Source: an uncultured Bacteroidota bacterium (GTDB lineage: Bacteria; Bacteroidota; Bacteroidia; Flavobacteriales; Flavobacteriaceae). From it: 64,000 bases of DNA. A program made the position numbers and the translations under genes. The stretch covers positions 1-64,000 of the forward strand of contig CACKBZ010000002.1 of NCBI GenBank assembly GCA_902598525.1, given 5' to 3'. The number at the start of each line of letters is the position of its first letter. The stretch's first letter is position 1. Positions 47,231 through 50,659 of the stretch are shown in pieces. The notes under the pieces are model-generated. The model was not told the origin of the DNA. It worked only from the letters and a program-made list of their open reading frames with translations, and ran no database searches.

Positions 47231-47261
47231 ACATTTACTCTAATTTACGAAATATTTTTGA

Positions 47262-49421
47262 TTAAAACTTAACGTCCAAACCTACAAGGATATTAATCCC
47301 AGATTGTGGATAATAATAGGTTCCTTCATAGGTTTTTATTTGATCATCTTCCTGAACATCATATGAATAATAACCACCATATGCAGAGTATTTATAATCA
47401 AATAAATTATTGACTAAAACCTTAAACTTTATTTCGTCTGATATATTTGGTAAATCTATATCATGAACAAAATTTATATCATTTATAAAAAATGATTCTA
47501 ATTTAGAGATTGGTGAGTTGGTTTGAGCAAAAAATTGTTCACCTACATACTTTGATCGCAACGAAATTAACACTTTTTTGTTTGGATTGAAATTTAGAAT
47601 ATTGTTAACAATTAAATTAGGTGAGTAAGCTAAATCCGTGTTCCCAAAATTTTTCAGATTTCCATCAAATGTTGAATAAAAATCCTTATTCTTATTTTCA
47701 CTAAGAGAGAAATTTGTTTCAATATTTAATTTGTTATTTAGCTTGATACTACTATCAAACTCTATTCCAACTCTATATGACTCACCAATGTTTCTTCTAA
47801 TTTCATACCCATTTATATCACGTTGACCAGTTAATACAAGCTGATCTTCGTAGATCATGTAAAATGCATTTAGAGATAAAGCCAAATTATTTGATTTTAA
47901 CTTCCAACCTAATTCTAAGTCATCCAGTTTTTCTTCATTTGGATTTCCATTTGCATAATCAGTTCGCGTTGGCTCTCTATGAGCCCTAGCAAATGAGAAA
48001 AAAAGATTGTTATTTTTATTTAGATTATAGAATAACCCAAATTTTGGATTGAAAAAATTAAAAGACTTATCAAGATTTTCAAATCCATCTTCTATGTAAC
48101 CAGTTGAAGTTGAATTTGCAGAAATACCAGCATCATATTTAATATTTCTAAATTGTAAGTCCCCATATAGTGTTAATCTGTCTGAAATGTAATAATCTAT
48201 TTTTGCATAAATGTTAAACTCCCCTTTATCACCAAAATCATCATAAAACTTTTCTTTAAAATCATATTGATTAACTGGAGAATTTATTTGATCATACCAT
48301 ATATACTCTCCATAATGTAAACCATTATATTTATTTAGCGAGCCTCCAATATTTACATTAAAATCATCTGTTTTATTATTTAGACTGTATAAAATGCCAT
48401 AAAAATCGTTGTCAATCCACCTTCTATCAATGTAATCAGATGCTCCATATCCAAGGTTATAGTTCTCGAAAAAACCTTTTCCATTTGTGAAATGAATCCC
48501 AAAGTTTGAATTCCAACCATTTTGATAAATCTGGTTCCAATGAATTTGAAGATGATTCTGTTTGTAATTATCTACTTGATCTTCGTAATACAATGTATTG
48601 CCAAACTCGTCATAGTATTCACCAGCCATATTATATTTTCTATTTGTTTCTAATGTTGATGAGTCAACTCCATACCAGGCCTGGTCAGTAATTTCATGAC
48701 CTGCAAAATTCAAAACTTTTATTAATGTGTTTTCATCTCTGTAAACTCCTTGCAGAAAATAAGAACGTAGGTTTGAACCAGATCTATCAATGTAACCATC
48801 AGATTTAATTCTAGAAACTCTCCCAGATAATTCAAATTTATCAATAAAGCCTGTTGAGAATCCTACTGAATTTTTTACAGTTCCAAAACTTCCTAATGTA
48901 TTGTTTATTTCAAAAAAAGGGCTTTCTGATGCTGAATTAGTCTGAATATTTATACTTCCACCAAATGCACCTGGTCCATTAGTTGAGGTGCCAACCCCTC
49001 TTTGAATTTGAATATTTTCAATAGATGAGGCAAAGTCAGGTAAGTCAACCCAATAAACTTGCATAGATTCAGAGTCATTATATGGGATTCCATTAATAGT
49101 AACATTAACTCTAGTCTGATCTGATCCTCTGATTCTAATGGATGAGTAGCCAATCCCTGCACCAGCATCTGAGTGAGTAACAACTGAGGGAGTATTCTTA
49201 AGCAGAATTGGAATATCTTGAGCTAAATTAGTTTTTTCAATATTCTCCTTTGATAAATTTACAAATGATACAGGAGTATCATTTTTGGCTTTTATTGCGC
49301 TAACAGTAACTTCTTCTAAGTTTAAAATACTAGTAAGAGAGTCAAGGTCTTTTGAGTTATTTACATCTTGAGCAAAGATGTGTGTACTAACAAGAAGTAC
49401 AAATAGTATATATTTTTTCAT
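47262..49421 (-). CDS. TonB-dependent outer membrane receptor under TPP riboswitch control
   Basis: 719 residues. Signal peptide (MKKYILFVLLVSTHIFAQ), a plug domain (about 40-155: LEEVTVSAIKAKNDTPVSFVNL, then IRIRGSDQTRVNVTINGIPYND) and a 22-strand-type barrel to the C-terminal strand ending LDVKF. No carboxypeptidase-like N-terminal extension and no SusD partner, so a small-molecule rather than a glycan receptor. The TPP riboswitch immediately upstream indicates thiamine or a thiamine derivative as ligand. The ATG directly follows the aptamer's closing stem. Confidence 0.93.
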   Translation of the reverse strand: MKKYILFVLLVSTHIFAQDVNNSKDLDSLTSILNLEEVTVSAIKAKNDTPVSFVNLSKENIEKTNLAQDIPILLKNTPSVVTHSDAGAGIGYSSIRIRGSDQTRVNVTINGIPYNDSESMQVYWVDLPDFASSIENIQIQRGVGTSTNGPGAFGGSINIQTNSASESPFFEINNTLGSFGTVKNSVGFSTGFIDKFELSGRVSRIKSDGYIDRSGSNLRSYFLQGVYRDENTLIKVLNFAGHEITDQAWYGVDSSTLETNRKYNMAGEYYDEFGNTLYYEDQVDNYKQNHLQIHWNQIYQNGWNSNFGIHFTNGKGFFENYNLGYGASDYIDRRWIDNDFYGILYSLNNKTDDFNVNIGGSLNKYNGLHYGEYIWYDQINSPVNQYDFKEKFYDDFGDKGEFNIYAKIDYYISDRLTLYGDLQFRNIKYDAGISANSTSTGYIEDGFENLDKSFNFFNPKFGLFYNLNKNNNLFFSFARAHREPTRTDYANGNPNEEKLDDLELGWKLKSNNLALSLNAFYMIYEDQLVLTGQRDINGYEIRRNIGESYRVGIEFDSSIKLNNKLNIETNFSLSENKNKDFYSTFDGNLKNFGNTDLAYSPNLIVNNILNFNPNKKVLISLRSKYVGEQFFAQTNSPISKLESFFINDINFVHDIDLPNISDEIKFKVLVNNLFDYKYSAYGGYYSYDVQEDDQIKTYEGTYYYPQSGINILVGLDVKF

Positions 49422-49499
49422 AATAAATTCCTTTCACAGTATTACCTGTCTAAGTTCTATGGGTTTGATCTCAGCTTTGTATAAGCACCCCAATTCATT
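49422..49499 (-). ncRNA. TPP riboswitch (THI element)
   Basis: Read on the minus strand, the conserved THI blocks occur in order: GGGGTGC, a short P3 (GCTT/AAGC), CTGAGAT, ACCC, GAAC..., ACAG-GTAATA-CTGT (P5) and GAAAGGAA. The closing P1 helix pairs AATGAATT (49492-49499) with AATTTATT (49422-49429), 8 pairs with one G-T. P1's 3' strand ends at the base before the receptor ATG, and the ribosome-binding AAAGG lies at its base. TPP binding would therefore hide the translation start without a separate expression platform. Confidence 0.93.
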
Positions 49500-49500
49500 C

Positions 49501-49531
49501 CAAAATTAAAGATTTTTATTTATTAAATCAA
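49501..49531 (-). promoter_or_regulatory. Promoter of the TPP riboswitch and receptor gene
   Basis: TTG (49529-49531), 20-base spacer, TAATTTTG (49501-49508) on the minus strand, a full match to the Bacteroidota pattern. The -7 box overlaps the stop codon of the kinase gene and the -33 box lies inside its coding region. Transcription would begin within the first bases of aptamer P1. Confidence 0.7.
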
Positions 49532-50066
49532 CAGCAGTATTAAATCTTTTGTTAAAGTTTTGGCCAGTTATTATATCAAACCTAACATTTAATATATCCA
49601 GCTCTAGTTTATGTGCTTTAAACATTTCTAATCTTTCATCTGGTCTATCTCGAAGATCATCTTTTATCCAAGGCGTATCAATATTTAAAATTAAATAATA
49701 GTCATATTTTAATAATTTTGATTGTCTAACAAGCCATGGATCACAGAATCCATCATAATGAGTTTTTGACCATGCAATAGTCGTTAAAATATTAGTATCA
49801 CAAAATATTAATTTATTGGAATTTAAAATGTTAGCATTTTCAAGTTCAACTTGCCCCCTTGCTATCTTTATAAGATCATCTTTATTACATACTTCTTTTT
49901 TATCATCCCATTTACTTTGAAGATAGTCTCTTGCATATTCACTGACAAAATTAGTTTTAAAATAAGAGGCAAGTTCTTGGGTCAATGTTGATTTTCCTGT
50001 TGATTCAGGACCACAAATAACAACCTTCTTTATTGATGATTCGTTTTGAGTAATATCTTTTTCCAT
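49506..50066 (-). CDS. NadR-like P-loop kinase
   Basis: 186 residues. Walker A GPESTGKST (about 19-27), then EYARDYL and CDTNILTT as in the ribosylnicotinamide kinase domain of NadR, with a RDRPDERLEMF lid. No adenylyltransferase or DNA-binding domain. Phosphorylates a permeated vitamin: nicotinamide riboside by homology, or thiamine if the adjacent TPP riboswitch reflects a shared pathway. The start lies 37 bases inside the permease gene. Confidence 0.85.
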   Translation of the reverse strand: MEKDITQNESSIKKVVICGPESTGKSTLTQELASYFKTNFVSEYARDYLQSKWDDKKEVCNKDDLIKIARGQVELENANILNSNKLIFCDTNILTTIAWSKTHYDGFCDPWLVRQSKLLKYDYYLILNIDTPWIKDDLRDRPDERLEMFKAHKLELDILNVRFDIITGQNFNKRFNTAVDLINKNL

Positions 50067-50659
50067 GATATATAGCCTAATATCGCTAACACTGTAAAAA
50101 TAATATACTGGAGTGAGGAAATCGTTAAACCTTTATAGAAATAAAGTGGAACTGTAATTAAATCTCCAATAATCCAAAATATCCAACTTTCAATTTTCCT
50201 TCTAGCCATTAACCACATAGCCACAAAGAAAATTGCAGTGGTTATATTATCAATATATGCCGTCCAACTGTTCCATTTATCAAACTGAACATATACAAAA
50301 TAAATAAATATTAGACTTCCAAGAGCCAATAAAATTAATTGTTTGTATTCCTTTTTTTTAAGTCTTGAAACATTATTTATAAATACTTCATCTTTTTTTC
50401 TCGACCAATAATACCATCCATAAATAGACATGATAAAGAAGTATCCATTAATTATCATGTCTCCTAAAAGAGAGAAATTGAAAAGTATGTAGACAAATAT
50501 TCCAGTTCCAATAAGCCCTGTTGGATATACTAAAATATTATTTTGTTTTGCATAAATAACACTTGTTATATTCATTATAACTGCAAATGATTCCAAATAA
50601 ATAAACGAAGAGGAATATGAAGAGTATTGAGAAAACAGAAAGTCAAAAATTTGATCCAT
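50030..50659 (-). CDS. pnuC: PnuC-family vitamin permease
   Basis: 209 residues with about seven helices. WxxW-type motifs of the PnuC family are seen, such as IYGWYYWSRK and WNSWTAYIDNITTAIFFVAMWLMARRKIESW. Family members take up nicotinamide riboside (PnuC), thiamine (PnuT) or riboflavin (PnuX) by facilitated diffusion with metabolic trapping by a kinase. The overlapping kinase gene fits that. Here thiamine is favoured by the nearby riboswitch, nicotinamide riboside by the kinase family. Confidence 0.9.
   Translation of the reverse strand: MDQIFDFLFSQYSSYSSSFIYLESFAVIMNITSVIYAKQNNILVYPTGLIGTGIFVYILFNFSLLGDMIINGYFFIMSIYGWYYWSRKKDEVFINNVSRLKKKEYKQLILLALGSLIFIYFVYVQFDKWNSWTAYIDNITTAIFFVAMWLMARRKIESWIFWIIGDLITVPLYFYKGLTISSLQYIIFTVLAILGYISWKKILLKTNHQ

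Follow-up and report, generated by a model that had tools for sequence, protein, structure and literature searches.

Can a TPP aptamer control a gene when its closing helix ends at the base before the start codon, so that there is no room for a separate expression platform? The locus that raises this question lies in the window analysed here, a 64,000-nucleotide stretch of DNA from a small flavobacterial draft genome (1.17 Mb, 79% complete). A 2017 paper described the mode of action of Bacteroidetes TPP riboswitches as uncertain (PMC5613172). The aptamer and its neighbouring genes are given below in their 5' to 3' order on the minus strand, which is pnuC-family gene, kinase gene, aptamer and receptor gene.

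50030 to 50659, minus strand: PnuC/PnuT-family vitamin transporter gene, upstream of the aptamer (PF04973, 174.9 bits; TIGR01528 above cut-off)
49506 to 50066, minus strand: NadR-like AAA_28 kinase gene, upstream of the aptamer (PF13521, 125 bits)
49412 to 49502, minus strand: TPP riboswitch aptamer, full-length match to RF00059 (cmscan)
47262 to 49421, minus strand: TonB-dependent receptor gene with plug and beta-barrel domains (Pfam PF07715 and PF00593)

As listed, the transporter and kinase genes share 37 bases (window positions 50030-50066), and the true start of the kinase may be a later codon. The receptor has a signal-peptide-like N-terminus (MKKYILFVLLVSTHIFAQ) and is akin to receptors found behind TPP aptamers in many other genera; its context suggests that it is a putative thiamine receptor of the OMthi type. 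The closest matches to the receptor among named genomes are in assemblies labelled uncultured Bacteroidetes or Flavobacteriaceae, for which the isolate names suggest a marine origin. A plasmid search matched nothing. The Bacteroidetes OMthi, pnuT and tnr3 operons (PMC5613172) likewise have a TPP aptamer before a TonB receptor and an adjacent PnuC-family transporter. In the window, however, the transporter and the NadR-like kinase are encoded upstream of the aptamer and not behind it.

A preliminary description, made from the sequence alone, had proposed that all conserved THI blocks are present on the minus strand and had called for a covariance search with the Rfam TPP model. That search was significant and confirms the proposal: the match covers the full RF00059 model (positions 1-105) at 49502-49412 on the minus strand, with a score of 55.9 bits against a gathering score of 54.3 and an E-value of 2.9e-8. 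It is the only Rfam match in the window, and a search of the whole 1.17 Mb draft genome found the same site and no second TPP match. The aptamer shares with the TPP riboswitch (THI element) of RF00059 all of its helices, the CTGAGA, ACCC..GAAC and GAAAGGAA core and a thiamine-transport context, since it precedes a TonB receptor of the TPP-associated type and has a PnuC-family neighbour. It differs in being a short form that lacks P3a, in having a P1 helix of A-U and G-U pairs only, and in its low score. Across 16 distinct congener sequences the pairs of P2 to P5 are 98-100% preserved and those of P1, taken as eight pairs, 73.6%; the congeners are related, so that counts across them are not counts of independent events. 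No covariation beyond that of shuffles was found among these 16 sequences, because the aptamer hardly varies within the genus, and the fold of the leader is unremarkable (z-score -0.44).

The position of the start codon is constant in the genus. In 17 of 17 intact loci, which include that of the window's genome and come from a sample of 25 genomes, the receptor ATG follows directly after the P1 3' strand, with a gap of about 0 nt. The other eight genomes have either a receptor fragment truncated at the end of a contig or no evident orthologue; the idea that they lack the switch was rejected, as their loci are cut or missing. Barrick and Breaker (2007, PMC2258182) described direct translation attenuation, in which the start codon lies within 15 nt of the end of the aptamer. 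This arrangement is commonest for TPP, preQ1 and SAM-I aptamers and occurs mostly in Actinobacteria and Cyanobacteria, and in its TPP members the purine-rich 3' core substitutes for the ribosome-binding site (PMC2258182). By its anatomy the window locus belongs to this class: the gap is 0 nt, no terminator or other platform can lie between aptamer and gene as there is no intervening sequence, and a purine-rich 3' core occupies the position of a ribosome-binding site. The compact arrangement, which had been thought unusual, is thus not unprecedented, the class having been named for TPP aptamers among others. What sets the locus apart from other members is the zero gap, a host phylum that does not use Shine-Dalgarno (SD) pairing, and relatives that point to the loss of a platform.

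These relatives provide the comparison. Gaps of 13-164 nt, with 62 as the median, separate aptamer and receptor gene at 47 loci of other genera, the first in-frame ATG being taken as the start (possibly off by some codons; loci with unclear starts are not among the 47). Significant complementarity to the 5' strand of the aptamer, typically ACCCCTTT against AAAGGGGT, is present in 25 of the 47 gaps, where about 2-3 would be expected by chance. Segments of the ACCCCTTT type look like an anti-aptamer expression platform and are likely to be a common platform of flavobacterial TPP loci. The same antisense recurs in the aptamer-to-receptor interval of many relatives, among them L061, L066 and L078. 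At the window locus there is no anti-aptamer segment, the zero gap leaving no room for one, and no intrinsic-terminator-like site was found on the minus strand from the aptamer to the end of the receptor gene, the nearest downstream being at 47232. Since the gap is zero throughout the genus and 13-164 nt with antisense in other genera, the parsimonious reading is that the platform was lost in the window's genus and that its absence is a derived, genus-wide trait. The earlier suggestion that the aptamer serves as its own expression platform is therefore supported by a zero gap fixed in the genus and by the lack of both a terminator and an anti-aptamer segment.

Two loci from another family of the order, L049 and L053, in genomes of 1.5 Mb, have gaps of 13-15 nt and so also fall within the distance that defines the direct class. 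Their TonB receptor is only 27% identical to that of the window. Compaction towards the direct arrangement may have occurred more than once, with L049 and L053 possibly a second, independent move. Pattern searches of 395 genomes from the phylum and 397 from the family gave no further convincing zero-gap case outside the window's genus, a lower bound because the pattern demands ATGAA. The extra matches that were checked were either genuine aptamers followed by a short reading frame or stretches in which the remainder of the aptamer was missing.

A leader of this kind needs a nearby transcription start. The elements that bear on it are the following.

49529 to 49531, minus strand: TTG, a -33-type element 20 nt upstream of the -7 box
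49501 to 49508, minus strand: TAATTTTG, a Bacteroidota -7 promoter box, in which TAA is the kinase stop codon in the window species
49495 to 49496, minus strand: predicted transcription start, 4-5 nt past the -7 box according to the published spacing

Reading of the sequence confirmed TTG-N20-TAATTTTG (49531-49529 and 49508-49501), with an exact TAnnTTTG in the window species. Allowing one mismatch, TAnnTTTG is present in 17 of 17 congeners (10 exact, against 2.2% exact and 27% with at most one mismatch in controls) and just 5' of the aptamer in 76 of 78 relatives (57 exact, against 1.6% and 20% in their control windows). The TTG is at a suitable distance in only 8 of the 17 congeners; the -33 element was reported to be weak in Flavobacterium johnsoniae (PMC6847099). 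A scan for E. coli-type sigma-70 sites found 41 against 42.7 expected, with a consensus that does not cover the Bacteroidota promoter. The proposal that the receptor has a promoter of its own, set at the foot of P1 and reaching into the 3' end of the kinase gene, is supported by the conservation of the box. Flavobacterial start maps show that transcription begins 4-5 nt after the -7 box (PMC6847099, PMC9723704), and because of this spacing we infer a start at 49496 or 49495, which would give a leader of about 75 nt made up of the aptamer only.

We considered whether the -7 box is merely the kinase stop codon. This was rejected: across the 17 congeners the stop varies over five positions, from -18 to -6 relative to the GGGG of the aptamer (73-84 nt before the receptor ATG), but the box does not move with it. 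Ten congeners have their kinase stop at a site other than the TAA of the box, so something other than the stop codon accounts for the conservation of the box. The kinase frame crosses part or all of the -7 box in ten loci (L011, L014, L015, L016, L017, L019, L020, L021, L023 and L024), and in the same ten it ends in or beside the P1 5' strand; here protein code, promoter and riboswitch share bases. The distance from the box to GGGG is 9-10 nt in the genus, and in nearly all relatives the box is farther away (10-17 nt). With the box just 5' of the aptamer in nearly every relative, promoters that adjoin the aptamer are the normal case in the family. The peculiarity of the window locus lies in the intrusion of its promoter into the 3' end of the kinase gene and into P1. 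It is conceivable, though improbable, that this compression of promoter, kinase stop and P1 has a function, in that the regulated aptamer would form only in mRNAs from the internal promoter, while on read-through mRNA ribosomes terminating on the kinase would cover the P1 5' strand and leave the receptor on.

The P1 helix is short and weak. Its strands are as follows.

49492 to 49499, minus strand: P1 5' strand AATGAATT, by direct reading (inner five bases 49496-49492, outer three 49499-49497)
49422 to 49429, minus strand: P1 3' strand AATTTATT, its final base directly 5' of the ATG at 49421

The preliminary description had an eight-pair P1 ending before the ATG. Its pairs and position can be read directly (49499-49492 with 49429-49422, one of the eight pairs being G-U). 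The outer three are poorly kept among the congeners (8/16, 5/16 and 6/13), whereas each of the inner five is preserved in 13-16 of the 16 distinct sequences, and the boundary between the two coincides with the predicted transcript start, so that 49499-49497 would fall outside an RNA made from the proposed promoter. A single RNA cannot both start inside P1 and contain all eight pairs of it. Since the outer three bases lie upstream of the predicted start, the transcribed P1 would thus consist of about five A-U and G-U pairs. The duplex energy is -2.5 kcal/mol for eight pairs and about 0 for the inner five, and in ligand-free RNA starting at 49496 the predicted probability of P1 is about 1% or less. 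A P1 of near-zero energy would need the ligand-bound core for its stability, as befits a switch with no competing partner. In two congeners, L026 and L027, P1 is very poor even in its inner part, and there the aptamer core itself probably does part of the blocking.

The weakness of P1, which is nearly absent in L026 and L027, the lack of a platform and a score near the Rfam gathering score might also be expected of an evolutionary remnant, an aptamer that still folds but ceased to control the receptor when the platform was lost. We regard this as very improbable. The core is almost invariant across the 17 species, against about 60-70% identity to which the flanking kinase and receptor proteins fall, and an aptamer without function, sitting next to a start codon in an A/T-rich genome, would be expected to erode.

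It is also possible that the receptor is made mainly from mRNA reading through from the pnuC-family and kinase genes, on which the aptamer either acts or is disturbed by ribosomes terminating at the kinase stop. The stop is only 6-18 nt from GGGG in all 17 congeners, the order of pnuC, kinase and receptor genes is kept in several other genera, P1 is predicted to pair somewhat more often when the RNA reads through (about 25% at 37 C), and the -33 element is poorly conserved. The -7 box, however, lies beside the aptamer in nearly all relatives, even where the upstream genes are different, and within the genus its place does not depend on the frame in which the kinase stops. We therefore consider dependence on read-through improbable, and take transcription from the internal promoter as the basis for what follows.

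If the aptamer acts on translation, the feature that it blocks would lie before the ATG. The preliminary description pointed to what it took for the only ribosome-binding stretch.

49430 to 49434, minus strand: AAAGG, SD-like, part of the conserved 3' aptamer core (3' strand of P4 plus the junction to P1)

In that proposal AAAGG is a working Shine-Dalgarno sequence that is hidden when TPP binds. Its position, -13 to -9 relative to the ATG, is a workable SD distance, it is identical in 16 of the 17 congeners, and in direct TPP switches purine-rich 3' cores replace the ribosome-binding site (PMC2258182). Its conservation, however, is accounted for by its place in the aptamer core, L039 carries AAAGA, and AAG of the motif is predicted to be about 85-90% paired in P4 without ligand at 37 C. 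SD-like motifs precede 3 of the 58 genes in the window where 3.0 are expected, which is chance, and the absence of SD use is an established trait of Bacteroidota (PMC6847099). The stress laid on AAAGG as a ribosome-binding site is thus not supported, and classical SD sequestration is unlikely, though a little less so than the readings built on read-through mRNA. In F. johnsoniae initiation takes place on unstructured, A-rich start regions, with A favourable at -3, -6, -12 and -13 (PMC6847099). The window locus has A at -3, -12 and -13, the last two belonging to AAAGG. Given that SD motifs are at chance level and that initiation in F. johnsoniae uses such regions, the likeliest blocked feature is the whole start region from -1 to -14, in which the locus would differ from other members of the direct class. 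In simple folding at 20 C, with no energy term for the ligand, forcing P1 did not change the accessibility of the start region in any consistent way.

Taken together, we think it probable that this is a TPP OFF-switch which directly controls translation of the thiamine-type TonB receptor and has no separate platform. From the TAnnTTTG promoter, which reaches into the kinase gene at its 3' end, transcription would begin at about 49496 and yield a leader that is essentially the aptamer alone. When TPP is absent, the very weak, A/U-rich P1 would not form and the bases before the AUG would be accessible to the 30S subunit. If TPP binds, the folded core and the stabilised short P1 would occupy positions -1 to about -14 and so block initiation. 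The aptamer, the zero gap and its conservation in the genus, the lack of the relatives' platform, the promoter box and the weakness of P1 are computational results, whereas the transcript start, TPP binding, the direction of control and its action at initiation are what we infer. The E. coli tbpA riboswitch (PMC11487190) offers a parallel: there, TPP makes P1 more stable and reduces the initiation of translation for a thiamine transporter operon. It has an anti-P1 stem and an SD sequence, whereas at the window locus no anti-P1 partner was seen and SD use is doubtful. Transporter operons beside TPP riboswitches in Bacteroides thetaiotaomicron showed no significant change in mRNA with thiamine (PMC5613172), which fits translational control and equally fits weak control.

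In a literature search whose coverage left out most subscription papers, no description of platform-free TPP switches in Flavobacteria was found. What appears to be new is a zero gap in a phylum without SD pairing, together with comparative evidence for the loss of a platform. The platform, up to 164 nt long, is present in about 50 relatives and absent from one genus, which makes a before-and-after comparison possible. If the window aptamer works, it allows the minimal size of a natural riboswitch to be tested, and also whether blocking an unstructured start region is sufficient in bacteria that do not use Shine-Dalgarno pairing. If the compression of promoter, kinase stop and P1 were itself functional, it would represent a translation-coupled TPP switch in bacteria without SD use.

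The consequences for the organism depend on its thiamine supply. Among the 25 genomes of the genus sample, most of them incomplete, no ThiC, no TPK catalytic domain (a further difference from the OMthi, pnuT and tnr3 operons) and no above-cut-off match of the ThiE type were found, and ThiL is present in 25 of 25. These results suggest that the genus probably imports thiamine rather than synthesising it. Our guess from the gene context is that the NadR-like kinase is the missing thiamine kinase, making TMP for ThiL. As the genus apparently lacks thiamine synthesis, control of the receptor would be of direct consequence for the uptake of the vitamin in the ocean.
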